In this document: in pieces, positions 1,474 through 51,074 of the stretch
Layout: every line of letters begins with the position of its first letter
How positions within the stretch are numbered: position 1 is the stretch's first letter
Assembly (NCBI RefSeq): GCF_008326305.1
Contig: NZ_BIXY01000051.1
Coordinates: forward strand, 1-51,654
Direction of reading: 5' to 3'
Length of the DNA stretch: 51,654 bases
DNA from: Dictyobacter arantiisoli
Lineage (GTDB): Bacteria > Chloroflexota > Ktedonobacteria > Ktedonobacterales > Ktedonobacteraceae
The notes under the pieces: generated by a model
What the model was told of the DNA's origin: nothing
The model's input: the letters and a program-made list of their open reading frames with translations, nothing else
Databases searched by the model: none
Program-made: the position numbers and the translations under genes

Positions 1474-1711
1474 AACTGCACAATTAAAATAACATGTAAT
1501 CAACTCTATACTTCTCTATAGCAGATTTTTTGATAAAATTCATCTACGAAAATTTAGCCAGTCAATCGTTCTTAATTATATCTATACAACAAAAGGAGAT
1601 AGAAGATAGCTTTCTGATAATAGTGATCAGAATTGGTATGGGGTTGTCGTAGATCAGGATACCTCTATCTAGACCGAGATACCTTGATTCTTAATAATGA
1701 GAGGATATATC

Positions 1712-2398
1712 GTGATTGATCAAGCAGATAAAGCTCTACGTGATTGGGTGAAGAGTGTGATCTCTGAAGTTGATGTTCTGCTCGGCCCACCTCACCAGCT
1801 AATTGGCAAACAAGGAGTAAGCTTGTATCTTTTCGCGTTGGTTCCTCCCTCTACAGCCTGGATGAATCGGGCATCCGCGACACAGATTGCACTCCGCTAT
1901 CTGGTAACAACCTGGGCCGATGAGGAAGAGGAGGCCCACCGGCTCCTGGGTCATTTGATCATGGCACTGCTGGGGAAGCACGAATACGAACTTGAGTTGA
2001 CCGATCTGCCAGCTTCTCTCTGGACTGCTTTTGGGCTAGTTCCGCGACCTGCTTTTATGCTCCGTGTACCACTCTACTTTGAACATTCTGCCCCAACACC
2101 TCCACTGGTACGGGGACCGTTAGTCGTTCGTGGTGCTCCAGCCGTTAGTCTTCATGGCACGGTCCTGGGCCCTGGCAAAGTCCCCGTTGCCGGAGCCCGG
2201 GTGGAACTACCTGCTCTCCAACTTATAGCTCATACGAACACACGAGGACGGTTTCACTTCTCTACTGTGCCGAGCGAGCCTCGTGGCATCCAGCTCCTGG
2301 TGAAGGCACGAGGATGTACACAAACCGCACTTATAGAAGAGCCTATTTCAGATAATAATCCGCTTGAGATATGTTTCGATTCATTTGATGCGAGGTAG
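1712..2398 (+). CDS. CIS cap/terminator protein, Pvc16-like (DUF4255) with C-terminal carboxypeptidase-regulatory-like domain
   Basis: First gene of the contractile injection system operon. The N-terminal 130 residues match the Pvc16/Afp16 N-terminal family (DUF4255): IDQADKALRDWVKS, GVSLYLFALVPPSTAWMNR, ALRYLVTTWADEEEEAHRLLG, then LPASLWTAFGLVPRPAFMLRVPL. In the family this protein caps the sheath and tube at the end distal to the baseplate. Residues about 145-225 form a beta-rich carboxypeptidase-regulatory-like fold (SLHGTVLGPGKVPVAGARVEL, TNTRGRFHFSTVP). I chose GTG 1712 because GAGAGGA ends 6 nt upstream and the protein then starts MIDQADKAL, as the family does; ATG 1697 is in frame. The stop is 5 bp before the sheath gene. 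Confidence 0.85.
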   Translation: MIDQADKALRDWVKSVISEVDVLLGPPHQLIGKQGVSLYLFALVPPSTAWMNRASATQIALRYLVTTWADEEEEAHRLLGHLIMALLGKHEYELELTDLPASLWTAFGLVPRPAFMLRVPLYFEHSAPTPPLVRGPLVVRGAPAVSLHGTVLGPGKVPVAGARVELPALQLIAHTNTRGRFHFSTVPSEPRGIQLLVKARGCTQTALIEEPISDNNPLEICFDSFDAR

Positions 2399-2403
2399 AA
2401 AGT

Positions 2404-3645
2404 ATGGCGACCTATTCGACACCCGATATCTATATTGAAGAAGTTGCGGGTGGTGCGCGACCGATTCAGGCAGTTGGCACCAGTACTGCTGGCTTCGTCG
2501 GCGAAGCATCAGATCCAACAAGGCTTGTGAATGAAGCAGTGGCGATCAATAACTGGTCTCAATTTGTGCGCTTCTTCGTTCCAGAAGGAAGTAAAAGCAC
2601 GCCACTCTCACAGGCGGTCTATGGTTTCTTCCAAAATGGCGGCAGCCGCTGTTTCGTGGTCAATGTTGGCAAAGGTGGGGCAATTGCAGGAGGTGGACGG
2701 ACTCGCGCTGGCCTGGATGTGCTGGAACAGGTTGATGAAATTGCCATCGTTGCTGCCCCAGGCTACAGTGATGCGGCATCTTACGAAGCACTCCTCACAC
2801 ACTGCGAAAAGCTGCGCGACCGGGTGGCGCTATTGGATACACCCCATAATGTTACAAATATTTCCCTGTTGACACAGGTTGCTACAGTGACCGCAACCTC
2901 CTCAATAAAAACAAGCGACAAAACGGATAACACAAAGGAAGCCGATAGCTCTGCTCCTGCTGGCTTACGTCCGCGTCAATCGGATAGCGGCTTCGGGGCA
3001 CTCTACTTCCCATGGATTACGGTACGCGATCCGCTCTCACTCAATGATCTTGTAGATGTTCCACCTTCTGGTCATCTTGCTGGCATCTGGGCTCGCACGG
3101 ATGCTACGCGAGGTGTACATAAAGCACCTGCCAATGAAGCAGTACGAGGGGCACTCAATCTTACCTATCAGCTTACACGCGACGAGCAAGGAATACTTAA
3201 TCAAAGTGGTGTCAACTGTATCCGCTCGTTCGCTCGTGAGGGAATTCGTGTCTGGGGTGCCCGCACCATTAGTGATGGGAGTAGCGAGTGGCGCTACCTG
3301 AACGTGCGCCGCCTGTTCAATATGATCGAGGAATCAATTGCTACAAGCACACGCTGGATTGTCTTTGAGCCCAATGATCGCACTTTGTGGAAATCGATCC
3401 GCCGTGACATCTCTGCTTTCTTGACTCGCCTCTGGCGCGACGGAGCCTTGATGGGTCGCACTCCACAGGAGGCATTCTTTGTAAAGTGCGATGAGGAAAC
3501 CAATCCATCAGAGGTGATTGACGCGGGCTCGGTCGTCACACTTATCGGGATTGCCCCAGTCAAACCTGCAGAGTTCATCGTGTTTCGTATCAGTCAGTAT
3601 GAAAGCGGCATTGAAACAGAGGCAGTAGGAGGTTCCAATGGCTGA
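2404..3645 (+). CDS. CIS contractile tail sheath protein
   Basis: 413 residues, with the hallmark start of phage and CIS sheaths (YSTPDIYIEEVAGGARPIQ, then GTSTAGFVGEA). The internal pattern FFQNGGSRCFVVNVG and the C-terminal block (IRVWGARTI, WRYLNVRRLFNMIEESI, WIVFEPND, FLTRLWRDGALMG, ECD-type end) is the conserved sheath C-domain that forms the mesh between subunits. The sheath wraps the inner tube and contracts to drive it through a membrane. It is the only sheath gene here, whereas Afp/PVC-type systems usually have two or three. Residues about 155-185 are a polar, Thr/Ser/Lys-rich insertion (TSSIKTSDKTDNTKE), probably surface exposed. The stop overlaps the tube gene by 8 bp, suggesting translational coupling. 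Confidence 0.95.
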   Translation: MATYSTPDIYIEEVAGGARPIQAVGTSTAGFVGEASDPTRLVNEAVAINNWSQFVRFFVPEGSKSTPLSQAVYGFFQNGGSRCFVVNVGKGGAIAGGGRTRAGLDVLEQVDEIAIVAAPGYSDAASYEALLTHCEKLRDRVALLDTPHNVTNISLLTQVATVTATSSIKTSDKTDNTKEADSSAPAGLRPRQSDSGFGALYFPWITVRDPLSLNDLVDVPPSGHLAGIWARTDATRGVHKAPANEAVRGALNLTYQLTRDEQGILNQSGVNCIRSFAREGIRVWGARTISDGSSEWRYLNVRRLFNMIEESIATSTRWIVFEPNDRTLWKSIRRDISAFLTRLWRDGALMGRTPQEAFFVKCDEETNPSEVIDAGSVVTLIGIAPVKPAEFIVFRISQYESGIETEAVGGSNG

Positions 3646-4120
3646 TGCTGGTAGCGCAGCCCCTGACGCTGGACAATCCGGCTCACAACCTAGCGTATTC
3701 AATGATCCATATCGCGCCTACAATTTTAAGCTGGTGATTCAGGGCGTCACGGAGGGCCACTTCACAGCATGTAGTGGACTGGGGATCAAAGTTCAGGTGA
3801 TCAAATATCGTGAGGGTGGAACAAGTCAGGTCGTGCATTGCATTCCTGGCCCCGTAGAATATGCGGATGTCACTCTACGCTATGGGCTGACCGCTTCGCA
3901 TGAAATCTGGGATTGGCTGCTGGCCTCCGTCTCAGGAAGGGTTGAGCGCAAAAATGTCTCGATTCTGATTCTCGATAGCGATGGCGTAAGCGAAGTGATG
4001 CGCTGGGATCTCATCAATGCCTGGCCTTCCGAGTGGCATGGTGCTCCTCTGGATGCACTGAACCGCGAGGTCGCCATCGAAACGCTGATATTAGTTTACG
4101 AAACACTCCAGCGGGCTTAA
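3638..4120 (+). CDS. CIS inner tube protein (gp19/Hcp-like)
   Basis: 160 residues. After a flexible Ala/Ser/Gly-rich leader (about 25 residues) come the diagnostic motifs of phage tail tube (gp19 family) proteins: DPYRAYNFKLVIQGV, FTACSGLGIKVQVIKYREGG, VEYADVTLRYGLT and a C-terminal RWDLINAWPSEWHGAPLDA, then EVAIETLILVYE. Subunits stack as hexameric rings to form the tube inside the sheath. ATG 3638 sits within the end of the sheath gene, preceded by GGAGG, so the two are coupled. Only one tube paralog is present; the long leader is a little unusual for this family. Confidence 0.95.
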   Translation: MADAGSAAPDAGQSGSQPSVFNDPYRAYNFKLVIQGVTEGHFTACSGLGIKVQVIKYREGGTSQVVHCIPGPVEYADVTLRYGLTASHEIWDWLLASVSGRVERKNVSILILDSDGVSEVMRWDLINAWPSEWHGAPLDALNREVAIETLILVYETLQRA

Positions 4121-4122
4121 TA

Positions 4123-4992
4123 ATGAAAAAGCAAAGTTTCAAGTTTTTTATCTTGCGTGCGTTTGTACATCAACTCCAGGATCTGGAGGATTTTGTGCGC
4201 TCTCAAATAGATGAGAATGAGTACATTACACATGAGCATCCGGAATCCTCAGGGCTAGCTGCAATAAGTGATACAAATGACGCTCATCTAAGGACGCCCT
4301 TACCTCCCGTAGCCGCTACTGCACCTGAAGGTGCAGCAGTGAGCCAGAATGCTGATATTGCGTCAACATCCTGGCTCACTACTACTCAGCCTCCCGCTCA
4401 CTGGCTGAAGCGCGTGCTGCAAGGTGCTCCAGAACTGGTGGAACCGGGCGATACTCCTCGACAACAAGTAGTATCCAACTCTCGTCCGTCGTCAGCCCAA
4501 CCTGTAGCTACGCAACCCTCTGGCAATACATATAAGGCACCAGCCCAATTGAGTAAGTCCCACAACCAGCGTGACCGGGCAAACGGCGTCGAGAGTTTCA
4601 AGCCAGTCAACAAGCAAACCGGCAGCCCGATTGACAATCAGTGGATACACACAGATAGACCCATGGACATCCATTTGCAGCCGGGTAAGCCTATAGAAGC
4701 AAGCCATCGTCCAGAGAACGTTGAACACCAGGGATCAGAAAATCAAAGAGAGGCAAGCCATCAGTTTTCAGCAAAAAAAAGAGAGCATGGATACGAATTT
4801 GGCTTATCTTCGACACAGCGGTTCCCCAGCGCGTTACCTCGAAAATCTCTGGGAACGTATCCCGAGATGCACTGGCCGTCACTTCCCGATGAAGAGATAG
4901 CTGAGCAACAGGATTGGGAGATGATGCAGCGGACCTGGGAACGACAGCAACGATTGAATGAAGAACAGCGAGGCATCGCATGGAACGCGTAG
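4123..4992 (+). CDS. CIS-locus protein of unknown function, Pro/Gln/Ser-rich middle
   Basis: 289 residues, start ATG 4123 two bases after the tube stop; an upstream in-frame ATG at 4033 lies inside the tube gene and is unlikely. The N-terminus (MKKQSFKFFILRAFVHQLQ) looks like an amphipathic helix. Residues about 45-235 are low-complexity and hydrophilic, rich in Pro, Ser, Gln, His and Asn, and likely disordered. The C-terminus (MHWPSLPDEEIAEQQDWEMM, then QRTWERQQRLNEEQRG) is a compact helical, acidic and Trp-bearing segment. No known domain is recognised. Its slot between the tube and the LysM hub is occupied in other CIS loci by small assembly proteins. It overlaps the next gene by 13 bp. 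It is too short and too disordered to be called a tape measure. Confidence 0.6.
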   Translation: MKKQSFKFFILRAFVHQLQDLEDFVRSQIDENEYITHEHPESSGLAAISDTNDAHLRTPLPPVAATAPEGAAVSQNADIASTSWLTTTQPPAHWLKRVLQGAPELVEPGDTPRQQVVSNSRPSSAQPVATQPSGNTYKAPAQLSKSHNQRDRANGVESFKPVNKQTGSPIDNQWIHTDRPMDIHLQPGKPIEASHRPENVEHQGSENQREASHQFSAKKREHGYEFGLSSTQRFPSALPRKSLGTYPEMHWPSLPDEEIAEQQDWEMMQRTWERQQRLNEEQRGIAWNA

Positions 4993-5735
4993 CTTTTTTA
5001 TTAGAGGAGACAAATGAGCGGATTGGCTGCTTGCTGAATCCCGATAGTCTGGTAATGCGTCGCGTGGCAGGCGTATCTCCTCGCCGCTCGTCTGGTGGAC
5101 CACTGACCGGAGCCGGATTACGAGATGATCCCCTCCTCTACACCGGAGGAGGTCGGACGGAATTGGATCTCAATCTACTCTTCGATGTCTCTCTGGCCGG
5201 ATCTTCGATTCAGACTGATGATGTACGTGATCTCACTGCGCCTCTCTGGAATCTCGCTGAAAATACCCTTAGTGCCAGCGGTTCCCAGAGACCACCCCTG
5301 ATCCGTTTTGTCTGGGGCAAATCGTGGAATATTCCCAGTATTGTAGCTGCGGTTGCGGAATATCTGGAACAGTTTACTGCGAACGGGGTGCCGCAACGCT
5401 CCTGGTTGAGCATGCGACTCTGGCGCGTCAATGAGCCACTGAAGGAGGCAACCTCAGAAAGCCGGCCTTTCCCAACACGCTCACTCCCTCCCAAAGACAT
5501 GAACATGCCGCCGGAGGACGTGCCAGCGGAGCGGGTCCGGGTCCATATCGTGAGTAAAGGTGAACGCCTCGACAGCATCTCAGCTCAGTACTATCCAAAT
5601 ACGCCTACCGCTGACATGCCATCTCTTTGGCGACTGCTCGCCTCGTTTAATAACATTCAGGACCCGCTTCATATCCCGGCTGGCTTCTTGTTGCGTATTC
5701 CACCGCTCTCGGCACCTGGAGGATTAACGATATGA
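4980..5735 (+). CDS. CIS baseplate hub/tube-joining protein with LysM domain (Afp7/Pvc7-like)
   Basis: 251 residues. The N-terminal 150 residues match the CIS tube/hub adaptor seen with LysM domains: EETNERIGCLLNPDSLVMRR, GRTELDLNLLFDVSL, DVRDLTAPLWNLAEN, PPLIRFVWGKSWNIPSIVAA, and VPQRSWLSMRLWRVNE. Residues about 190-245 are a LysM module (VRVHIVSKGERLDSISAQYY, then PSLWRLLASFNNIQDPLHIP). In phage P2 gpX and Afp7 this module attaches the hub to the tube. The start ATG lies in the last codons of the upstream gene and the stop overlaps the next start as ATGA, so all are translationally coupled. Confidence 0.88.
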   Translation: MERVAFLLEETNERIGCLLNPDSLVMRRVAGVSPRRSSGGPLTGAGLRDDPLLYTGGGRTELDLNLLFDVSLAGSSIQTDDVRDLTAPLWNLAENTLSASGSQRPPLIRFVWGKSWNIPSIVAAVAEYLEQFTANGVPQRSWLSMRLWRVNEPLKEATSESRPFPTRSLPPKDMNMPPEDVPAERVRVHIVSKGERLDSISAQYYPNTPTADMPSLWRLLASFNNIQDPLHIPAGFLLRIPPLSAPGGLTI

Positions 5736-7252
5736 ATCACCTGCAATCCTTGCCTGAGGTTTGGCTGGAAGTAGACGGAACTCCACTTGCTAGTGCCGAT
5801 CTGCCAGCATTGCGCGAGGTTCGCGTCCAACAATGCTTATCACTCCCCACCCTCTGTGAGCTGACCTTTGCTAATCCACCAGAGCCGCTGACCAGGGTGG
5901 CTCAGCTCGTGCCAGGAACCAGGTTGAAGGTGCGGGTCACAGAACATCAAGAGCCGTTATTCGTGGGCCAGGTGACTGCCGTCGAACATTACTATGGACC
6001 TGCACGCAGTCACGAGATCCGCGTCCGTAGCTATGATCTACTGCACCAGTTACGCAAACGCCAATCGGTACGAGTTCGTGTACAGGTGAATACACGCGAT
6101 CTGGCACAAGAACTGGTGACCGATCTCGGCCTGACTGTTCAGGCTGCGGAGTCTGGACCATTATGGCCCAGGCTGATCCAGCATCGTCAATCGGATCTCG
6201 AACTCCTCCAGGAAATCGCTGCACGTTGCGGCTTGTACCTGACGGTTCGAAGGAACGTCTTGCACTTGTTAACGCTGCAAGGTATTGGTGAGCCACTGCC
6301 ACTTGCACTCGGAGAGACGCTACTGGAAGCTCGTGTCGAACTGAATACAGATACGATATGTCACTCGGTCGCGGCGACCGGCTGGGATACCTCGCGTGTC
6401 GAGACGCATGCGGGCCAGATTTCACAGGCCCGTGTCGGATACACACAAACAGCCAGAATTACGCCAGCTAGCGTTGGAACTGACGGCAAGCATATGCTCG
6501 TCAATGAAGGGGTGTTGAGCGATGACCACGCGACAAGCCTTGCTCAGGCGGAACTGGATCGGCGTGTAGCACGTGAGGTGACAATCTGGGGCATGGCGGA
6601 AGGCGATCCCCGCTTGCGCCCGGGTACAACAGTAGTAATCACAGGAGTAGACGATGCACTGGCAGAACGCTATGTGCTTGCGACGGTAATCCATACTATT
6701 GATGCTCGCCATGGCTTCATTTCTGAGCTTTCCAGCACTCCGCCCACACCAGTAGCGCGAGCACGTGGGAGTATCGCGACACCAGGAGTGGTAACGCAGA
6801 TAGATGATCCAGAGAAGCTAGGGCGCGTTCGTGTCTCGCTCTCAACTTATGACAATATTGAGACTGATTGGATGGGCGTGCTCAGCGCGGGTGCAGGCGT
6901 TGGCAAGGGCTTGATGGTCCTACCCGATATTGGCGACCATGTGCTGGTTCTCTTAGCACACGAAGATCCTGCTCAGGGCATCGTCCTCGGCGGTCTCTAT
7001 GGTGCGAAACAGCCACCCGATGCGGGCATTGACGGCGGTGCCGTGCGTCGCTATACCTTGCTTACTCCCGGCGGACAACGCATTCGCCTGGATGATGGAC
7101 AGCACACCATCCGCCTGGAGAATAGCATCGGCAGTTTTTATGAACTTTCCCCCGAGAAGGTGCTTGTGCATGCCACCACTGATCTAGAGATTGAAGCACC
7201 TGGACAAAGAGTGGTCATTCGGGGGAAAAATATCGATTTTGAGAGGGGATAG
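5732..7252 (+). CDS. CIS central spike protein, VgrG/gpD-like (Afp8/Pvc8-like)
   Basis: 506 residues. Residues 1-330 follow the gp27/phage late-control gpD fold (PEVWLEVDGTPL, PGTRLKVRVTEHQEPLFVGQ, YDLLHQLRKRQSVRVRVQV, LIQHRQSDLELLQEIAARCG). Residues about 348-425 are the gp5-type OB-fold (ATPGVVTQIDDPEKLGRVRV, then DWMGVLSAGAGVGKGLMVLP, GDHVLVLLAHEDPAQGIVLG). A beta-repeat tail follows (RIRLDDGQHTIRLEN, APGQRVVIRGKNI) that would form the trimeric needle. The trimer sits at the baseplate centre under the tube. No extra enzymatic effector domain is fused to the C-terminus. Overlaps the hub gene by 4 bp and is followed after 5 bp by the tip gene. Confidence 0.92.
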   Translation: MNHLQSLPEVWLEVDGTPLASADLPALREVRVQQCLSLPTLCELTFANPPEPLTRVAQLVPGTRLKVRVTEHQEPLFVGQVTAVEHYYGPARSHEIRVRSYDLLHQLRKRQSVRVRVQVNTRDLAQELVTDLGLTVQAAESGPLWPRLIQHRQSDLELLQEIAARCGLYLTVRRNVLHLLTLQGIGEPLPLALGETLLEARVELNTDTICHSVAATGWDTSRVETHAGQISQARVGYTQTARITPASVGTDGKHMLVNEGVLSDDHATSLAQAELDRRVAREVTIWGMAEGDPRLRPGTTVVITGVDDALAERYVLATVIHTIDARHGFISELSSTPPTPVARARGSIATPGVVTQIDDPEKLGRVRVSLSTYDNIETDWMGVLSAGAGVGKGLMVLPDIGDHVLVLLAHEDPAQGIVLGGLYGAKQPPDAGIDGGAVRRYTLLTPGGQRIRLDDGQHTIRLENSIGSFYELSPEKVLVHATTDLEIEAPGQRVVIRGKNIDFERG

Positions 7253-7257
7253 ACAGA

Positions 7258-7602
7258 ATGAAGTGGCTTACTGAGGCTGCTGTTATTCTTTGCCAGCATG
7301 AAATAGGCGTGGTTAAGCTCACTCCTGTTCAACAGGATCTGGTGACGATTGGGCACGTGAAGGTTCTGGTGGAACATGACCCGGAACTGAAGCCGATCGC
7401 GGGTTGCCCTAATAGTGGTGCAACGATCAAACCGTGCATGTTGACGCAAAAGGTTGAGGTCGGCTATTCAGATTTCCTGCGCATCGATGGTCAGCGTATC
7501 TGTTTGGATACCGTGACTGGACTGACCGATGGCACACCTCCAGGTCTGGTTAAATATACAGTGCATGCTCCTGGTCAGGAGCTGGTGACGGAGGTTTCAT
7601 GA
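7258..7602 (+). CDS. CIS PAAR-like spike tip protein (DUF4280-like)
   Basis: 114 residues, beta-rich. The pattern AAVILCQHEIGVVKL ... HVKVLVEHDPELKPIAGCPN ... ATIKPCMLTQKVEVG and the terminal beta hairpin resemble DUF4280/PAAR-repeat tips that sharpen the VgrG-like spike. Conserved Cys and His (C12, H14, C-P, K-P-C) could bind the metal that these cones carry; this is inferred from residue spacing. The position directly after the spike gene, overlapping the gp25 start as ATGA, supports the call. No toxin extension. Confidence 0.75.
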   Translation: MKWLTEAAVILCQHEIGVVKLTPVQQDLVTIGHVKVLVEHDPELKPIAGCPNSGATIKPCMLTQKVEVGYSDFLRIDGQRICLDTVTGLTDGTPPGLVKYTVHAPGQELVTEVS

Positions 7603-8030
7603 ACATACCACGCTATCGCACCTGGAAATTTATCCATCCTGACATGGATGAGGCGGAAGGTCCTGCTGGTCTCGCGCTCTCGCCACAGGGCAGCATTGCT
7701 CTGGTCGATGAGCTTGCATCAGTGCGCCAGGCCATCTTGCTCTTGCTTACAACGATGCCTGGTGAGCGCGTGATGCGACCAAACTACGGCTGTCAATTAC
7801 ATCGCTTAATGTTCTCTCCCAACGATCAAACAACGGCTGGCTTAGCCATTCACTATGTACGCCAGGCCCTGAATCTTTGGGAACCGCGCATTGAAGTATT
7901 GCGACTGGATGCAGAGTACAATGCTGATGCGCCAGAACAGCTCGTCATTGGCCTCGAATATCGCATTCTGGCTACCCAACAGCTTGATGCCACCACTTTT
8001 TCCTTCAATCTTTCAGCAGGAGATCTCTAA
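7599..8030 (+). CDS. CIS baseplate wedge protein, gp25-like
   Basis: 143 residues. The gp25/gpW core is clear: ALVDELASVRQAILLLLTTM, PGERVMRPNYGCQLHRLMF, then TAGLAIHYVRQALNLWEPRI and VLRLDAEYN. The Pro-Gly-Glu-Arg motif before a Gly-Cys-x-Leu turn is characteristic. gp25 links the baseplate wedge to the first sheath ring and starts sheath assembly. Start ATG overlaps the PAAR gene stop, and its stop overlaps the next start (TAATG). Confidence 0.93.
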   Translation: MNIPRYRTWKFIHPDMDEAEGPAGLALSPQGSIALVDELASVRQAILLLLTTMPGERVMRPNYGCQLHRLMFSPNDQTTAGLAIHYVRQALNLWEPRIEVLRLDAEYNADAPEQLVIGLEYRILATQQLDATTFSFNLSAGDL

Positions 8031-10624
8031 TGCCACTTGTGTCACCTAATCTGGATGATCGTAATTTCCAGCAGTTGCTGGATGAAGCCAGTAGCCGCAT
8101 TAAACAATCTTGTCCTGATTGGACCGATTTTTCACCTGCCAATCCAGGTATGACGCTGATTGAGCTTTTCGCGTATCTCACGGAGACAATGATCTATCGT
8201 CTGAATCGTGTACCGGAGAAGATGTATATCGAGTTTTTGCGCCTGATCGGTATCCGGCTACAACCTCCGTCGGCTGCTAGTGTAGCTCTGCTCTTCACTC
8301 GCGCACGAGCAGAAGAGCAGCCTCTTCAGATTCCTCGCGGAACACGCGTGACGCTGTCTCGTCCTGATAGTGCCAGCGATGCCCTTGTCTTTACGACGGC
8401 AGAGGATGCAACGATTACAGGAGGTTCAACACAGGTGGAGGTACGGGCTCAGCATTGCGATCTGGTGGAGGGCGAACTGGCAGGCGTTGGCACTGGTCTG
8501 CCAGGTCTCGTTGTCAATGCGCAACGTTCACCGATTGTGGCTTCAACCGGGGATGCTCTGGACCTGGTCGTCGGCGTCGAGGCGAACCCTAACGAATTAG
8601 GAGGACGTATTCCGGCTATCGAGTATGCGGGTAAAACGTATCGGGTGTGGCGACAGGTGGAAAACTTTACTGCGACCATTATAGGCGCTGATCAATATGC
8701 TTATCTGGTCGATCGCATGTCAGGGATGATAATCTTTGCTCCTACGGCCCGGCTTGAGAAGCAGAATGGGCAATTGACGACGACTCCCGAAGCGCTGGCT
8801 GCCATTCCCCCTAAGGGACGCGAGATCCGCCTGTGGTATCGGCGGGGGGGTGGACCGGAGGGGAATGTTGAGGCGAATACGCTTACCAGGCTGAAAGATG
8901 CCTTAAATGGTCTTCAGGTCACAAATCCTGCTCCGGCCGTAGGTGGCCGTGCAGCTGAGACGTTAGAAAATGCTCTGATTCGCGGTCCTCAGCAATTGCA
9001 CTCATTGCAGCGTGCGGTGACTGCCCGCGATTTCGAGCTGGTCGCTCTCTATGATTCACAGGTGGTGGCACGCACGAAGGCGATGACCCAGGCGTCGTTG
9101 TGGTCATATGCCCTGCCAGGCACGGTCGAGGTTCTGCTTGTTCCTTTTATACCCGAGGAGATGCGAAGTGGCGGCCAGGTCACAGTAAAAGCTCTCCAGG
9201 ATCGTCAGACAAATGAAGCACTGCAACACGTTCGACAAACATTGGATGAGCGCCGTCCTCTTGGTACAACCTGCGTGGTCAATTGGGCTCACTACAAAAC
9301 GGTGCGCGTAGCTGCGAAGATTGCGGTACGACGAGAAGAAGATCTTCTGGCTGTTCGGCAACGCGTTATTGAGCGTTTATATCAGACAATTAATCCACTT
9401 CCAACTCAATTTAGCTCAACAGGCTGGCCTTTCAGTCAGGCTTTGCGCGTCTCTCATATCTACGATGTGGCATTAGCGGAACCAGGCGTGCTTTGGGTAG
9501 AACAGGTTCGTCTGTTGGTGGATGAGGTCCCCAATAACAATGTTTCTGTGATTACTGCTGATGCGACTCAGCGGCGTACCTGGTATGCTGGCAGCGGCAG
9601 CACACTGTTCCGCTCGTTTAATGATGGCGATGGTTGGGAGCTGGCAGCCCGTTTTACCGATGAGGAGATTACGGACGTAAAATCCCATCCTGACCGCGCT
9701 GGCTTTGTGGTCATCGCTACACGTTTACCCAACAATGCAGGATCACGGGTCTATGTTTCCCGCAATTGCGCTGAGACCTGGGACGCTACCATCTACTCAT
9801 TATCATTTCAGGTACAGGATCTGGCCTGGCTCCTCCACGGAGGCGAACCTCTTCTTCTGCTGGCTACCAATGTTGGACTCTATGAACTCACGATACAATC
9901 CGGAAGTAGTCCGGTGCCGGTGCTGGTTGATAAAACCAACCAGACGCTCGGTTTTTACGCTGTGGTCGCCGGTTCAGATGTTCGAGGTAATGTCAATGTA
10001 GCAGTCGCAGCTCAGAACAATGGGGGGATCTACTTTTCTAATACAGGAGGCTCAACCAACACATATCGACAGATCGGATTAAGCGGTCAGGCGGTCCGCG
10101 AGTTGGTGATGGAGAACGATGGCCCCCGTTCGTTTCTATGGGCGGGTACGGCATCTGCTGGTGGGGATGATCCCGGTAAAGGCTGCTTTACCTGGGAAAT
10201 ACTTGGCTCGGAAAATCCACAAGAAGGATGGCAAGGATTCGGGAAAAACTGGACCGGGGGGACCTGCCATGCGATTACTTTTGTTGGGAATCAAGCTCTG
10301 GCTGCCTCTCATCGCTCTGGCGTGCTTCGTCTCGATCTCCATAATCGCGATGCTGCCTGGCAGGCCCCCACTGTTGGTAGTGGCCTCCCGATGCGGGATC
10401 AAGGTCGCTTCCTCCCTGTCCTGGCTCTGGCCACTGATCCAGATGCACGCTTGCTTCTTGTTGGCGGAGGCAACGGGGTTTTGCGGAGAATGGATGCCGG
10501 GGAAAAATATGTTTCGTTGTCTGAAAAAGAACTCGATAAAGTGACACTGCCTCCGACCTGGTTGTTTGTCTCTGGCGCACATGATATCACTGTGGAGAGC
10601 GAAGATGAAGCGAACCGAAATTGA
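8030..10624 (+). CDS. CIS baseplate J-like protein fused to a C-terminal beta-propeller
   Basis: 864 residues. The N-terminal 75 residues (LVSPNLDDRNFQQLLDEASS, then TDFSPANPGMTLIELFAYLT, ETMIYRLNRVPEKMYIEFLR) are the signature of CIS baseplate J proteins (Afp11/gp6-like wedge). The J domain continues to about 500, with HSLQRAVTARDFELVA and VRLLVDEV. From about 510 to 855 the sequence changes to WD40/BNR-type repeats: RTWYAGSGSTLFRSFNDGDG, SRVYVSRNCAETWD, LLLATNVGLYELTI, GGIYFSNTGGSTNTY, ALAASHRSGVLRLDL. This fits a six- or seven-bladed propeller of Ycf48/BNR type. Typical J proteins in these loci end near the 500-700 mark without it. The junction is in frame with no stop. The propeller could bind a surface or another baseplate part; that is inference. 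Confidence 0.88.
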   Translation: MPLVSPNLDDRNFQQLLDEASSRIKQSCPDWTDFSPANPGMTLIELFAYLTETMIYRLNRVPEKMYIEFLRLIGIRLQPPSAASVALLFTRARAEEQPLQIPRGTRVTLSRPDSASDALVFTTAEDATITGGSTQVEVRAQHCDLVEGELAGVGTGLPGLVVNAQRSPIVASTGDALDLVVGVEANPNELGGRIPAIEYAGKTYRVWRQVENFTATIIGADQYAYLVDRMSGMIIFAPTARLEKQNGQLTTTPEALAAIPPKGREIRLWYRRGGGPEGNVEANTLTRLKDALNGLQVTNPAPAVGGRAAETLENALIRGPQQLHSLQRAVTARDFELVALYDSQVVARTKAMTQASLWSYALPGTVEVLLVPFIPEEMRSGGQVTVKALQDRQTNEALQHVRQTLDERRPLGTTCVVNWAHYKTVRVAAKIAVRREEDLLAVRQRVIERLYQTINPLPTQFSSTGWPFSQALRVSHIYDVALAEPGVLWVEQVRLLVDEVPNNNVSVITADATQRRTWYAGSGSTLFRSFNDGDGWELAARFTDEEITDVKSHPDRAGFVVIATRLPNNAGSRVYVSRNCAETWDATIYSLSFQVQDLAWLLHGGEPLLLLATNVGLYELTIQSGSSPVPVLVDKTNQTLGFYAVVAGSDVRGNVNVAVAAQNNGGIYFSNTGGSTNTYRQIGLSGQAVRELVMENDGPRSFLWAGTASAGGDDPGKGCFTWEILGSENPQEGWQGFGKNWTGGTCHAITFVGNQALAASHRSGVLRLDLHNRDAAWQAPTVGSGLPMRDQGRFLPVLALATDPDARLLLVGGGNGVLRRMDAGEKYVSLSEKELDKVTLPPTWLFVSGAHDITVESEDEANRN

Positions 10625-11171
10625 ACAACTCCTTCCTGGTGTCTTTCAGCGCACAATGCAAGAAGGCACGCTGCTATTCGCCCTTCTGGAGGTCATGGAA
10701 GCACTACCTGCGCCAGACGAAGCTATCTTAGATCATCTCGATATGTACTTTAACCCTTATCGTACACCCGATGCGTTCGTGCCGTTCCTGGCAATCTGGC
10801 TCGATCTCGACCGACTCTTATTGGAGATTCCTGAGGAATTTAAAGATCAAGCTCCTCCGCCCCTTCCAAGTGGCATGGGACGACTGCGCGAGCTAGTCGC
10901 GGCCGCTCCATTCCTGACACAATGGCGTGGGACAGCAAAAGGACTGCTGCGCTTCCTGGAAACGGCCACCGGCATACAGGGCTTTACTCTGGATGAACAT
11001 GCACCAGGACCTGATAGCCGTCCGCACCCGTTTCATCTTCTTGTTCGTATACCATCGGCTGCAAGCGTCTACCGCGTGTTGATTGAACGCATCATTGAAT
11101 CAGAGAAACCTGCCTATGTCACCTACGAACTCCAGGTACAGAGGGAACAAGGTACAACTGCTTCTTCTTAG
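10605..11171 (+). CDS. CIS baseplate protein, phage tail gpI-like (Afp12-like)
   Basis: 188 residues. ATG 10605 is used because GAGAGCGAAG precedes it and the protein then starts MKRTEIEQLLPGVFQRTMQ, as gpI/TIGR02242-type tail proteins do. Diagnostic stretches: FALLEVMEALPAPDEAILDH, LDMYFNPYRTPDAFVPFLAI, MGRLRELVAAAPFLTQWRGT, KGLLRFLETATGIQGFTLDE. In phages and CIS it joins J in the outer baseplate wedge. The start lies 20 bp inside the J gene. It is the last recognisable structural gene; no tail fibre, tape measure or AAA+ ATPase follows. Confidence 0.88.
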   Translation: MKRTEIEQLLPGVFQRTMQEGTLLFALLEVMEALPAPDEAILDHLDMYFNPYRTPDAFVPFLAIWLDLDRLLLEIPEEFKDQAPPPLPSGMGRLRELVAAAPFLTQWRGTAKGLLRFLETATGIQGFTLDEHAPGPDSRPHPFHLLVRIPSAASVYRVLIERIIESEKPAYVTYELQVQREQGTTASS

Positions 11172-40128: not shown

Positions 40129-40238
40129 CTTGCCTCTTTTCGGACACGAAAAGCACTGGCATTTTTATCCAAAAACGGGTAAAATAACCCTACCAAATGA
40201 GGTTTTTATTCCCACTACTCATGAAACGAGGAACAAGC

Positions 40239-40841
40239 ATGCCAGGACAGACGTTTGCCTATCTCCGCGTGTCCAAATTGGACCAGGATCTGGAAAAGAA
40301 CAAACTCGATATTTTGAAGCTGGCCAATGAGACGCACCTGGGGCATGTTCAGTTCGTAGAAGAGAAAATCTCTGGCAAAGTCTCCTGGCGCAAACGCCAG
40401 ATTGCAACCATTCTGGAGCAGGCGCAAGAAGGCGACGCGATCATTGTCAGTGAACTGTCTCGCTTGGGGCGGAGCATGCTGGAGTGCATGGAGATTCTCT
40501 CCCTGGCCATGCAAAAAGGTATCCGCATCTATGCCGTCAAAGGCAACTGGCAGCTCAACAATAGTATCCAGAGCAAGATTGTGGCCATGGCCTTTGCGAT
40601 GGCCGCAGAAATTGAGCGGGACCTGATCTCCCAGCGGACGACCGAAGCACTTGCTACCCGCAAACAACAGGGGATGTTATTGGGTCGCCCTAAAGGCGTG
40701 GGCAAGAGTAAATTGGACGCGTATCACGTGGAAATCACGGCATTACTCAAGAATGGGGCGACCAAGACCTGGATCGCTACGAAATATGGGACCACGCGTC
40801 GCAATCTAAGTCATTGGATGAAGCAGCATGGAATCGTGTAA
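40239..40841 (+). CDS. Serine recombinase (Tn3-type resolvase)
   Basis: 200 residues from ATG 40239 (GAGG 8 nt upstream; an in-frame ATG 40197 is less likely). Catalytic Ser in FAYLRVSKLDQD (Ser12), then VEEKISGKVSWRKRQIATIL, DAIIVSELSRLGRSMLECME, AAEIERDLISQRTTEALATR and the linker GRPKGVGKSK before a C-terminal helix-turn-helix (TKTWIATKYGTTRRNLSHWM). Resolves cointegrates in Tn3 transposition. It lies between two Tn3-like ends (40026 and 40929), making a 0.9-kb resolvase-only element. Confidence 0.92.
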   Translation: MPGQTFAYLRVSKLDQDLEKNKLDILKLANETHLGHVQFVEEKISGKVSWRKRQIATILEQAQEGDAIIVSELSRLGRSMLECMEILSLAMQKGIRIYAVKGNWQLNNSIQSKIVAMAFAMAAEIERDLISQRTTEALATRKQQGMLLGRPKGVGKSKLDAYHVEITALLKNGATKTWIATKYGTTRRNLSHWMKQHGIV

Positions 40842-45569: not shown

Positions 45570-46339
45570 ATATGGTGGATGGTCTGCTTTATCACGAAAC
45601 TGATCTGGCTATTCATGAGCATTACTCAGATACGTGGGGGTTTACGGATCAGATTTTTGGAATCACACGTTTGCTCGGTTTCGAGTTTGCCCCACGGATA
45701 CGAGATCTGGGCGAGAAACTCATCTTCCATTTTGACAAACCGGCATCCTATCCCACCCTGGGACCACTCCTGGGGGGAACCATCAATGTCAAGCAGATTG
45801 AGAGCCATTGGGATGATCTCCTGCGTCTCACCAGCTCGCTTCACAAGGGCACCGTCACCGCCTCACTCATTTTGGGAAAACTGGCTTCGTATCCTCGGCA
45901 AAATGGCCTGGCCTGGGCACTGCGAGAATGTGGACGCATTGAGCGCAGTATTTTTGCCTTGAAATGGCTGCAAAGTCCCCCATTACGGCGACGGGTGCAA
46001 GTCGGATTGAACAAAGGAGAAGCACGCAATAAATTGGCACGTGCGGTCTGTCACTACCAACTGGGAGAGATCCGTGATCGGTCCTACGAAGATCAGCAAT
46101 ACCGAGCCAGTGGACTCAATCTTGTCATTGCCGCCATTATTTTATGGAATACGGTGTACCTGGCCGAAGCCGTGGAGCAATTGAAACGCGACGGAGTAAC
46201 GATCAAGGAAGAGTACCTCCAGCATGTGTCTCCCCTCGGCTGGGAACATATCAACTTGACGGGCGATTTCCAATGGAATGTGAAGCATATTCCACCCACT
46301 GGGCAACTGCGTCCACTACGAACGAAGCAGCACCGATGA
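45569..46339 (+). pseudogene. Tn3-family transposase (TnpA) C-terminal fragment
   Basis: About 255 residues: [136 protein letters not shown]. The Tn3 DDE-type C-terminal core with its Glu in LNKGEAR. The first 700 or so residues are absent because the Tn3-like end at 45528-45569 abuts the sequence. Subfamily differs from the fragment at 12812. Confidence 0.9.
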
Positions 46340-46341
46340 GG

Positions 46342-46484
46342 AGCTCTTAGTACTACAGTGCCACTTACAACGAGAAAAGCGAAGTAACACAGCTTGAGAG
46401 GCCGATTGGCGATTCATATCAGTAAATGGATGAAGGCGCTCCAAGAGCCATCTCATATGCTAAGTGGCACTGCAGTATTAGAGC
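46342..46484. mobile_element. 143-bp MITE with 24-25-bp terminal repeats
   Basis: GCTCTTAGTACTACAGTGCC (46342-46361 and on to CACTTA) is inverted at 46461-46484 (TAAGTGGCACTGCAGTATTA, GAGC). Starts 3 bp after tnpA ends. No ORF. Confidence 0.6.
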
Positions 46485-46603
46485 GTGTTTTGTAAATGAC
46501 CCCCAGAGCGAGAGCCAAGACCGACCGCTATTGAGCATGAGTTTACAGCCACCTGCCTCATACGTAGACAGAGCGTCTCAGAAAGCGACTTTAGCTGCAA
46601 TCG

Positions 46604-46650
46604 CCTGTCAGTGTGATTTTGACGAAAAGATACGACGTACCATATAACTG
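46604..46650. repeat. 47-bp inverted repeat, left member of the 3.3-kb segment
   Basis: Starts CCTGTCAGTGTGATTTTGAC and ends CGACGTACCATATAACTG. It matches 49891-49937 inverted at 46 of 47 positions and contains the GTACCATATAA half site (46637-46647). Confidence 0.85.
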
Positions 46651-46818
46651 ATAAAAATCACACACCTTTCTCTTCTGCTTCCAGCAATGAGAGTTGGGCA
46701 GGTATTATATCCTCTTCCTCTTGCGCAGAAACAGCATCCACTTCTATCTCAGTGGGATGGGACAGACGTGTGGGTGAACCGTGATACTCACGTAACGGGC
46801 GAAAATCACCTTCCAAGG

Positions 46819-47004
46819 TCACATCCTTAAAGGAGTATGAAGTTCTGAAGTCACGATTGTGAGATCAGCAGGCACGGCCTGAAGAAACAAGTGCAAATCA
46901 TGGGCATATGACTTGATGGTGTTTCTGGGAACAGAACGCTGGCGCAGGCTTGCCACAAAGGTTTCGATAGCGTCGAGCGTGGGAATAGCAATCTGGTCGG
47001 ACAT
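46819..47004 (-). pseudogene. Tyrosine recombinase N-terminal fragment
   Basis: 61 residues: TLDAIETFVASLRQRSVPRN, TIKSYAHDLHLFLQAVPADL. This is the SAM-like core-binding domain of XerC/D- or TnpI-type tyrosine recombinases (FVASLRQRS...T-x-x-SYAHDL-x-x-FL). The catalytic domain with R-H-x-x-R-Y is missing. Its upstream region (47032-47169) holds repeated half sites. Confidence 0.75.
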
Positions 47005-47141
47005 GTTTGTTTTTCTCTCTCATTCTTTCAAGTACCATATAACTAGGAAAACTCTCTATGAGTTTACTCAGTAACAAGAGAAGAAAAATCGGCCATTGAA
47101 GCCTATTGACGACCAATAGGCTTCTTCCATTTCTGCTTTAA

Positions 47142-47169
47142 GTACCATATAACGCTCATTATATGGTAC
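47142..47169. other. dif-like 11-6-11 recombination core site
   Basis: GTACCATATAA (47142-47152), central CGCTCA, TTATATGGTAC (47159-47169): a perfect 11-bp dyad with a 6-bp spacer whose inner ends are ATAA and TTAT, as in dif sites. The half site also occurs at 46637, 47032 and, inverted, 49894. Confidence 0.7.
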
Positions 47170-47189
47170 CTCTGGTCTTTTCCCTGGGA

Positions 47190-47843
47190 TCATATCGAGA
47201 GGTTGACCACCTCCGCAGTTGTTACTCCTGCTCGCCACGCAGCACACAAGTACGTGAGAAGCCAGGCAAAGCTTTGTTCCCCAGAAGCACGCTCATGGCC
47301 AGATGGGGAAACCATGGGAGAAAGGGCATCGGTAAAGTGCATGGTGACCACCCCATGCATCACCTGGAAACGCCAGGCAAATTCCTCGTCTGAGAGGTGT
47401 GGGACGGCCTGACGAAAGGCTGAAAAATATTTTTCAGCTATCGGGCCGAAGATCCGGGCTATCTCCGCCCTCACCTCCTGGTCAGGCTCGCTCGCCAGTC
47501 TGCTAAAGATTTGTCGGCGCCGTTTTCCCGTTTCCTCTCGATCATCAAGATACTGAAAAAACGGGACATAGTAGGCCTTGAGCAACTCTTCCAGCAAAGG
47601 AGCCCTTCCACCGGCGGTGATCTGCTCCAGGTTACGCAGCCGCTCTTCAACCAGTGGGGTGAACATCTGCTGGAGCACCAGCGAGATCAAGGCGGCCTTC
47701 GTGCCAAAATGATAATTCACGGCGGCTAGATTGACCCCCGCAGCAGCAGTGATCTGCCGCAGGGATGTCGCGGCAAAACCCTGTTCGGCCAGCGTTTGCT
47801 CAGCCGCAGCGAGGATCGCGGGTTTACAACTCGTTGCTTTCAT
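47190..47843 (-). CDS. TetR/AcrR-family transcriptional regulator
   Basis: 217 residues. N-terminal helix-turn-helix: ILAAAEQTLAEQGFAATSLR, QITAAAGVNLAAVNYHFGTK, AALISLVLQQMF. The ligand-binding half (about 75-217) includes the C-terminal pattern of the YbjK/CecR-like group (HLSDEEFAWRFQVMHGVVTM). Divergent to the promoter at 47882 and to the MFS and oxidoreductase genes, hence likely repressor of them. Confidence 0.9.
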   Translation of the reverse strand: MKATSCKPAILAAAEQTLAEQGFAATSLRQITAAAGVNLAAVNYHFGTKAALISLVLQQMFTPLVEERLRNLEQITAGGRAPLLEELLKAYYVPFFQYLDDREETGKRRRQIFSRLASEPDQEVRAEIARIFGPIAEKYFSAFRQAVPHLSDEEFAWRFQVMHGVVTMHFTDALSPMVSPSGHERASGEQSFAWLLTYLCAAWRAGVTTAEVVNLSI

Positions 47844-47911: not shown

Positions 47912-48188
47912 TCAAACAGCCGCTTGATACAGGTGATAAAAACGATAATTTCAATTAACTGTTTGAAAGTTAGAGAAGGGATATCACACTCGTGACAACG
48001 CTCCAAGAAATGGTACCGGAGGCCGATCGCGTGGCTTCTCCACTCATCCATGCATTGCGAACTCCCGTCTGGGGGTCGGCAGACTCTTTCCCTGAAATGG
48101 CAACTTCCAACGAAGATGTGCTGGTTGCTCCATCGTTGAAGCACCTCTTTTTTTCGTGCGGCATCGTATGCGTTCGTGGAGATGTACA

Positions 48189-48534
48189 ATGATTTCACCT
48201 GTTTCCCTGTCGCTTGAGACGCGGCGGCGTCAGATGGTAGGGCTGGTGGCGGTCAGCCTTGGTTACTTTATGGTGTTGCTCGATACCATGATTTTGAATG
48301 TGGCTTTGCCGGATATTGAAGCGCAGTTACATGGCACGATGACTGGTCTGCAATGGATTGCTAATAGTTACACCCTAGATGGGGAGCGCGCTCGGCGTGG
48401 CAATCCTGGGGGCAGCACTCGGCAGCAAGCCCACAACTGGAGCCATGCAGGCAGCCATTGAAATGTTGCTGGTGGCCTTTGTCCTGGGCTTTGCGCTCAG
48501 CGCGAGCGCCTTGAGAAAGAGCGCACACTCTTGA
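48189..48534 (+). pseudogene. EmrB/QacA-type MFS exporter with a large internal deletion
   Basis: N-terminus MISPVSLSLETRRRQ, then VGLVAVSLGYFMVLLDTMIL, NVALPDIEAQL, GLQWIANSYTLD (first helices of DHA2 exporters, D-x-T-I-x-N-V-A-L-P). At about 48379 the frame shifts into the C-terminus: GSALGVAILGAALGSKPTTG and VLGFALSASALRK. Ten or more membrane helices are missing. Nonfunctional. Confidence 0.8.
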
Positions 48535-48690
48535 AGGACAAAAGAGCGTGGATATACAAATGTGCAACTGGTTGGTTTTTCCCCACGATGATCCTGGTGA
48601 ATCGCTAGCAGGCCCACCAGGGGTATGGTGTGATTTTCCATAGAAGAACGTTTGAAGTTACAGAGAATAGAGAAAGAGAGTTTTTATACC

Positions 48691-49680
48691 ATGATGAAAG
48701 CCGTGGTTATTCCCCGCTTTGGCGGACCAGAAGTGCTCGAGGTACGTGAAGTACCTGTGCCACAGCCTAAAGCGGGTGAGGTCTTGATCGAGGTCGCCTA
48801 CGCAGGTGTCAATTATTCTGACTTGATGGGACGCAGCCGGGGTGGAACGTATGCCCGTGAGCTGCCTTATACCCCTGGTTACGAGGTTGCGGGAGTCATC
48901 CAGGCGCTCGGTGAAGGAGTGGAGGGCTTGCAGATCGGGCAGCGGGTCGCTGCGATGAGCATTTTTGGTGGGTACGCGGAGTTCGCGGTAGCCCAGGCTG
49001 CTCTGACCTTTCCCCTGGACAGCTTTGCCAACGCTATAGAGATGGAGCAGGCAGCTGCCTTTCCGATGGTTGCTATCACCGCCTATGATCTTCTCACGCG
49101 AGCTGGGAGGATATGCGAGGGGGAAAGCGTGCTTATTCACTCGGCTGCGGGTGGAGTTGGGACTGTGGCAGGCCAGATTGCACGTGCGCTGGGAGCGCGG
49201 CTCGTGCTGGGTGTCGTCAGCAAGGCAGAGAAAGTTGCCGAGGCGCGTTCGTTTGGATACGACCAAGTTTTCCCAGTGGCGGATTTTGAGCAGAAGGTGC
49301 TGGAAGCCACCCATGGCAAGGGCATTGATATCGTGCTGGATGCAAGTGGTGAGCCGATACGTAGCCGGAACCTTCCCTTGCTGGCTCGTTTTGGACGTCT
49401 GGTCGTCTTTGGCAATGCCAGCGGCAATCCTGAGAAGGCGCTGGCACCTGGCGAACTGTTGCGGTTGAATTGTTCTGTCGTGGGCTATAGTGTGAGCGCA
49501 CTTATGAAGACCTCTCCCCATGTTGTCGCCGAGACGGCTCAACAGGTGATTCGCTTGATCGCCGAAAGCAAGCTCAAGCCTGTGATTTCCGAGGTCCTTC
49601 CTCTGGAACAGGCAGCAGAGGCGCATCGGCGCATTGAAGCGCGTTCACACGTTGGCAAACTGCTGTTGTGTGTGAAATAG
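48691..49680 (+). CDS. Zinc-independent quinone oxidoreductase (QOR-like, MDR family)
   Basis: 329 residues from ATG 48691 (ATG 48694 equally possible). MKAVVIPRFGGPEVLEVREV, KAGEVLIEVAYAGVNYSDLM, PGYEVAGVIQALGEGVEGLQ, GQRVAAMS, then nucleotide binding at SAAGGVGTVAGQIARALGAR and HGKGIDIVLDASGEPIRSRN. No zinc ligands. NADPH-dependent quinone or enone reduction. Behind a deleted exporter and under TetR control; paralog of the gene at 18509. Confidence 0.9.
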   Translation: MMKAVVIPRFGGPEVLEVREVPVPQPKAGEVLIEVAYAGVNYSDLMGRSRGGTYARELPYTPGYEVAGVIQALGEGVEGLQIGQRVAAMSIFGGYAEFAVAQAALTFPLDSFANAIEMEQAAAFPMVAITAYDLLTRAGRICEGESVLIHSAAGGVGTVAGQIARALGARLVLGVVSKAEKVAEARSFGYDQVFPVADFEQKVLEATHGKGIDIVLDASGEPIRSRNLPLLARFGRLVVFGNASGNPEKALAPGELLRLNCSVVGYSVSALMKTSPHVVAETAQQVIRLIAESKLKPVISEVLPLEQAAEAHRRIEARSHVGKLLLCVK

Positions 49681-49890: not shown

Positions 49891-49937
49891 CAGTTATATG
49901 GTACGTCGTATCTTTTCGTCAAAAACACACTGACAGG
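49891..49937. repeat. 47-bp inverted repeat, right member of the 3.3-kb segment
   Basis: CAGTTATATGGTACGTCG... to ...CACACTGACAGG, inverse of 46604-46650. Carries the TTATATGGTAC half site (49894-49904). Confidence 0.85.
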
Positions 49938-50030
49938 CCCAATGAGCGATGAAAGAGAGTGGGAGAGCACTCATACCTGCTGGCTCCTCGGTTGTAGCTT
50001 TCCCTTGGTGGTCATTTGCAAAATACGCTC

Positions 50031-50749: not shown

Positions 50750-51074
50750 AGGGGTGAAATGCGCGAAGCTGTCACTAGGGGCAAAGTAGCATTTGAGAAA
50801 GCCGTCATTTTATTATGATGGATACCGCTTCAGCCCTCTTTGATCCTAGCTTCACTGGCTTTTCTGATAGCATAGCTCGTACTAGAAATCTCGTAGTAGA
50901 TACTGAGATCTAGTACGAGCTACTTCAGAGACCAGGGGGTGTTTACGTAAGTTTTTCGGCATGCATAAACACACTTTACATGCACAAAAGTCTCATTTTT
51001 GGGCTTAGCGGGGAAGGCAAAAATGTGATGACCCCTACTTTGCCCCTGGTGACAGCTTCGCGCATTTCACCCCT
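50750..51074. mobile_element. 325-bp MITE with 40-bp Tn3-like terminal repeats
   Basis: AGGGGTGAAATGCGCGAAGC (continuing to 50789) is inverted at 51035-51074, 39 of 40 bp. GGGG at the outer ends fits a Tn3-derived MITE. Inside, AGCTCGTACTAGA (50874-50886) is inverted at 50909-50921, and a Tn3-like end abuts the right repeat (51001-51036). No gene. Confidence 0.75.
51001..51036. repeat. Tn3-like terminal repeat inside the MITE
   Basis: Reverse complement AGGGGTCATCACATTTTTGC, ... CCCCGCTAAGCCC; related to 40888 and 45528. Confidence 0.5.

Follow-up and report, generated by a model that had tools for sequence, protein, structure and literature searches.

The window, a stretch of 51,654 nt from Dictyobacter arantiisoli, carries two terminal inverted repeats (TIRs) of 48 bp that enclose gene relics, recombination half sites and passenger genes. 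The left TIR (46602-46649, + strand) has its outer end at 46602 and the half site GTACCATATAAC (46637-46648) as its inner end; the right TIR (49892-49939, - strand) runs from an outer end at 49939 to a half site at 49893-49904. They belong to an inverted repeat pair of 53 nt, 94% complementary and 3,230 nt apart, that contains the half sites at 46637 and 49894, and they score 74.9 and 79.4 against a TIR profile with a maximum of 80.6. Tn3-family TIRs measure about 38 bp or more and often start with GGGG; those of the window start with CGCC/GGCC.

The left side of this unit holds what remains of two genes on the - strand. The first is the C-terminal tail of a Tn3 transposase, TnpA (46658-46852, about 64 aa, LEGDFRPLRE...), with 21/53 identities to residues 980-1032 of the TnpA of a relative, L038 (E=7e-7 in an 800-bp search). 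Its stop codon lies 8 bp from the left TIR, as expected if the TIR is the end of a transposon. The second covers the start, ~54 codons, of tnpI, a gene for a tyrosine recombinase (46843-47004, E=9e-20; Phage_int_SAM_1 scores below the cut-off). Upstream of the tnpI relic lie an accessory half site, DR (47032-47043, + strand), an 11-bp, terminator-like hairpin (47098-47124, unstranded) and a predicted core recombination site (47142-47169, unstranded), composed of IR1 (47142-47152), the centre CGCTCA and IR2 (47159-47169). IR2 is also the start of a remnant of the original right TIR, of which an inner portion is left (47159-47182, - strand; repeat D5). The passengers follow: a TetR family regulator (47190-47843, - strand; PF17939, PF00440), an N-terminal fragment weakly matching MFS transporters (48156-48461, + strand; PF07690, E=0.008, below the cut-off) and a gene of the zinc-type alcohol dehydrogenase/quinone oxidoreductase family (48652-49680, + strand; PF00107, PF08240). 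The unit has a tnpI/tnpA relic with a truncated TIR on its left side and a single TIR on its right.

A repeated half site and a symmetric dyad

The 11-mer GTACCATATAA occurs exactly five times in the window, at 46637(+), 47032(+), 47142(+), 47159(-) and 49894(-). When the window was shuffled, copies with at most one mismatch averaged 0.34 and never exceeded three, so that five were reached in 0/100 shuffles; in the 7.2-Mb genome the 11-mer has 18 copies, compared with five for a control read backwards. Two of the window copies form the dyad GTACCATATAA-CGCTCA-TTATATGGTAC at 47142-47169, symmetrical at 11/11 positions around its 6-bp centre. These positions and this symmetry agree with an earlier note on the same DNA, whose recombinase gene remnant is likewise real: the tnpI relic matches residues 1-53 of P0001, an intact tyrosine recombinase encoded by the relative L026, at 70% identity. 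The same note had described three satellite half sites beside the dyad. The one at 47032 is indeed accessory, as the DR, but those at 46637 and 49894 form the inner TIR ends and are not free satellites. An Rfam search gave no match, and a scan of the tnpI region of the window found no promoter. At the place equivalent to the strong hairpin 47098-47124, L037 has a comparable but different hairpin, and L038 has no obvious one.

Elsewhere in the window, 45572-46504 (+) holds the C-terminal portion of a different Tn3 TnpA, with 86% identity to a gene of genome G032. We weighed the relic of this TnpA at 45572-46339 as a possible partner transposase but rejected it, since it falls beyond the TIRs and shares only 43% identity with the cognate L038 TnpA. 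The sequence downstream, GGGGGTCATTTACAAAACACGCTC..., resembles that other element's own end, and a similar stretch begins in the opposite sense at ~50011. Inverted repeats of 40 nt (98%), 245 nt apart, mark 50750-51074; L037 and L038 share parts of this sequence, which is therefore probably another miniature element. The window further contains a serine recombinase at 40197-40841 (Resolvase domain, E=1.9e-28) and, judged by eye from translations, a cluster resembling a contractile tail or injection system at 1697-11171 (sheath, tube, spike and baseplate-like ORFs).

Relatives with intact recombinase genes

We searched 47 genomes of the order for the core pattern, allowing up to two mismatches, and found it in six, the window's own genome included. 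The relatives have a common layout of TIR, core, DR, tnpI and tnpA. In L026 (G022, a Ktedonobacterales metagenome assembly), the same core and the same DR, 110 bp apart, adjoin an intact tnpI followed by the 5′ end of tnpA; window positions 46862-47182 align with L026 8674-8991 at 69% DNA identity, the alignment stopping inside the TIR expected after the core. The layout is repeated in L038 (G032), whose intact tnpI is collinear with a complete TnpA of 1053 aa, and in L122 (G102, outside the order), whose recombinase is 65% identical and whose tnpA is partial. L037 (G025) retains an intact tnpI with DR and IR2 and has lost IR1. The gene tnpI lies next to and collinear with tnpA in L038, where both are intact, and in L026, L037 and L122, where tnpA is partial, while the window keeps relics alone. 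Two inverted half sites lie upstream of tnpI in the window, L026, L038 and L122; between tnpI and the core, each of these four has one DR, with no second accessory repeat. The DR stands 110 bp from IR1 in the window, with equal DR-to-core spacing in L026, L031 and L038, and 100 bp from the core in L122.

All tyrosine recombinase catalytic residues (R, K, HxxR, H, Y) are kept in the tnpI products of L026, L037 and L038, and intact products match Phage_integrase with E-values down to 3.8e-32. The L038 TnpA reaches 834 bits against the NCBIfam model transpos_Tn3 and matches the Tn4430 TnpA structure (PDB 7qd8) with E=6.6e-139; it is a large DDE transposase with DUF4158 and DDE_Tnp_Tn3, of which the window has the tail relic only. 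With core and DR upstream of intact tnpI, and with tnpA, in these relatives, the earlier note's proposal of a TnpI/Xer-type resolution site from a Tn3 transposon gains support. The outcome that the note had named as a refutation, a site never found beside recombinases in other genomes, is contradicted by these loci.

An 11-6-11 layout with inner ends ATAA/TTAT is also found in dif sites, whose recombinases share the fold family, and the recombinases here do score against XerC/XerD models, though far below the cut-offs. That the dyad is a chromosomal dimer-resolution site serving the host XerC and XerD is nonetheless vanishingly improbable and already contradicted. It is perfectly symmetrical and associated with one recombinase and an accessory DR; it is borne on a transposon and adjoins tnpI and tnpA; most genomes of the order lack it; and its half site recurs in transposon ends, both in its own genome and in several relatives.

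The half-site sequence itself differs between elements, and it does so jointly at separated positions. In L038 the code is GTGCGATATAA in both DR and core, the core halves reading GTGCGATATAT and GTGCGGTATAA. L122 carries a third version, GTACCAGATAA, at DR and core, with one core half reading CTACCAGATAA. Such joint change within an element is what a common binding protein requires, and it weighs against taking the palindrome for only a transcription terminator or the operator of a regulator. A hairpin or repressor role does have points in its favour: in Tn5401, TnpI bound to its site modulates expression as well (PMC7157771), and the one exact match to the core in viral contigs, from a phage and set aside as unrelated, places identical letters inside a longer hairpin that is apparently a terminator. 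Lone half sites, at a fixed distance as DR and within TIRs, cannot however form hairpins, and we regard this explanation as extremely unlikely.

Transposon ends, miniatures and the window unit

TIR copies collected by the TIR pattern yield the consensus GGCCTRTCAGTGTTTTTTTGACGAAAAGATACGACGTACCATATAACT, with the half site as inner end; the L122 TIR starts with GGGGTC, the classical Tn3 GGGG start. In L026, L027, L030, L038 and L122, the outer core half doubles as the TIR half site, which means that core and end overlap. Two miniatures, L027 8832-9049 and L030 8868-9085, are 218 bp long and consist of both TIRs and a tyrosine-type core; in others, of 266-364 bp, TIRs are present but no complete core. 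A further miniature with TIRs and a tyrosine-type core lies at L029 8993-9174, 218 bp being the length of complete copies; in L027, L030 and L029, 120 bp separate the far TIR half site from the core.

Because the outer half of the dyad equals the TIR half site, and because many copies are miniatures or solo ends without a recombinase, these could be simple MITEs with a transposase site in each TIR, the dyad arising where two inverted ends happen to abut and no resolution site existing at all. We judge this very unlikely. The DR and the core are conserved upstream of tnpI over three half-site versions, the 6-bp centre is kept in the window, L026, L027 and L122, and the dyad survives in the window, where the TIR is truncated.

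We conclude that the dyad is very probably the core of an internal resolution site belonging to a Tn3-family transposon with a TnpI-type tyrosine recombinase. Counting against this reading are the loss of IR1 in L037 despite its intact tnpI, the missing target duplication and the end of homology at 47182. Binding and cleavage by TnpI, resolution and mobility are what we infer from the arrangement of sites and genes. Replicative transposition by TnpA would produce a cointegrate with two cores, on which two pairs of TnpI would act, exchanging strands at the 6-bp centre, while TnpI on the DR, 110 bp away, would help to assemble the synapse. Since the half site of 11-12 bp is also the inner end of each TIR, TnpI would be placed next to TnpA at both transposon ends. 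In this lineage, a single half site is both IR2 of the core and the half site of the TIR on the tnpI side.

The window copy is a dead relic that has kept both ends around the TetR and oxidoreductase genes. As the start of tnpI is joined to the tail of tnpA, the remainder of tnpI and the greater part of tnpA have been lost, most simply through one deletion; a second event would have truncated the TIR on the tnpI side, leaving its inner 24 bp, and a further complete TIR, at a distance of 2.7 kb, now closes a unit of 3,338 bp. The last 100 bp up to and including this right TIR resemble the end of another element, L104 (78%). The outermost TIRs are nearly identical, so a transposase might still use them in trans, and the unit would be mobile only with both TnpA and TnpI so supplied. 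The end of homology to the intact relative at 47182 means that the passenger region may stem from a later rearrangement, in which case the unit perhaps never moved.

Neither the window unit nor five TIR-bounded miniatures are flanked by a 5-bp target duplication, the window showing CAAT/CAAT only; recent insertion by the standard Tn3 reaction is therefore undocumented for these six units. A 15-bp near-repeat (13/15) around L094 is not common to the other units. Gene-bearing TIME-COMPs without flanking repeats are on record (PMC13367494), so the missing duplication is not decisive here, though the expected mark of insertion is lacking. The passenger genes were rejected as conserved cargo: oxidoreductases near several ends are only 25-37% identical and partly outside the element. 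Other TIR copies have distant relatives of the window's genes on their inner side, namely TetR, oxidoreductase and MFS genes in L095 (4259-7881) and an oxidoreductase gene in L105 (2346-4038).

Known tnpI transposons and a possible wider group

Tn5401, TnBth4 and Tn4430 are Bacillus elements. They alone carry tnpI among 190 Tn3-family members in a 2020 survey (PMC7157771). Tn4430 has an IR1-IR2 core with DR1 and DR2 upstream of tnpI, which is collinear with tnpA; Tn5401 repeats the TnpI site of DR2 once more near each of its ends (Fig. 4 legend), the only element for which end-proximal half sites are mentioned there (PMC7157771). By layout and TnpA, the features compared, the element described here resembles Tn5401 and Tn4430. 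With Tn5401 of Bacillus thuringiensis, in which tnpI and tnpA point the same way, it has in common a Tn3 TnpA with a tyrosine recombinase, an internal site upstream of tnpI and a half site near each end, which in the window lies at the inner ends of both TIRs. It differs in having one DR where Tn5401 has two, in showing no ParE-ParD pair and in its host phylum, Chloroflexota. The Tn5401 half-site consensus is ATGTCCRCTAAY, from which the half site here also differs. In papers by Baum, TnpA binding in Tn5401 reportedly depends on TnpI. The coincidence of the outer core half with the inner end of the TIR is stated here for the present elements. With Tn4430 the element shares collinear tnpI-tnpA, an IR1-IR2 core upstream of tnpI and a homologous TnpA, but Tn4430 has both DR1 and DR2 and a different TIR sequence; as this TnpA is related to many Tn3 subgroups, the match alone does not place the element in the Tn4430 subgroup.

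The miniatures also recall TIMEs and TIME-COMPs, the miniatures and composites derived from Tn3 elements (PMC4133298, PMC13367494): short, TIR-bounded and transposase-less, some with a resolution site, alongside gene-bearing composites that need transposase in trans. The resolution sites described in PMC13367494 are those of the serine resolvase TnpR, and neither TnpI nor tyrosine recombinases are mentioned there, whereas the 218-bp miniatures of L027 and L030 carry a tyrosine-type core. The window unit, for its part, has passenger genes between two outer TIRs but lacks the two full TIME copies that bound the passenger DNA of a TIME-COMP. What appears new is the Chloroflexota hosts, the fusion of core and TIR, the single DR and the miniatures that carry the core.

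There are also more distant candidates. In L123 and L124, from other Chloroflexota, a recombinase 37-38% identical is divergent from an adjoining Tn3 TnpA; a 51-bp inverted repeat encloses L123. The intergenic regions of these two contain half sites of the type TCCTGYGATAA, which also lie upstream of recombinases in L125, L126 and the Deinococcus locus L061. They form a dyad with a 6-bp centre, mostly imperfect, in L123, L124, L126 and L061, and none that we saw in L125. In all five loci one half site stands exactly 77 bp from the next, which is the near half of the dyad where a dyad is present; this fixed distance suggests a wider class with one DR at a set spacing.

Other searches led further afield. 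Viral contigs hold six distant recombinases related to TnpI (24-30% identity). Plasmid relatives from Nocardia and Rhodococcus (35-37%) have no annotated Tn3 transposase within the stretch examined. Among the plasmid elements with the nearest TnpA, that of Cytobacillus has a recombinase family protein and that of Alicyclobacillus has, on the opposite strand, a short site-specific integrase; that of Rubrobacter has none. A search of plasmids with the Tn4430 end sequence gave no TnpI element; the three stretches retrieved were L107, from Klebsiella, in which a Tn3 transposase is accompanied by a serine-type recombinase, L108, without an annotated Tn3 transposase, and L109, an unannotated record.

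There is a broader reading that we hold tentatively and rate somewhat short of probable. Core and transposon end may use one half site, so that the same TnpI-bound subunit would serve both resolution and end recognition by TnpA. TnpI-bearing Tn3 elements may form a wider group in Chloroflexota, and perhaps Deinococcota, rather than a peculiarity of Bacillus, with two gene orders, collinear (DR 100-110 bp from the core) and divergent (DR at 77 bp), each with a quickly changing half-site code.

The presence of the TnpI module in Chloroflexota, in at least three half-site versions, would provide natural specificity variants, with which one could ask directly which bases are recognised by which residues of the recombinase. 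The miniatures that have a tyrosine-type core would represent a further kind of TIME, not mentioned in the papers cited. The half site common to core and TIR, finally, makes it possible to test whether cointegrate resolution is linked to end recognition; such a role has so far been discussed only for Tn5401.
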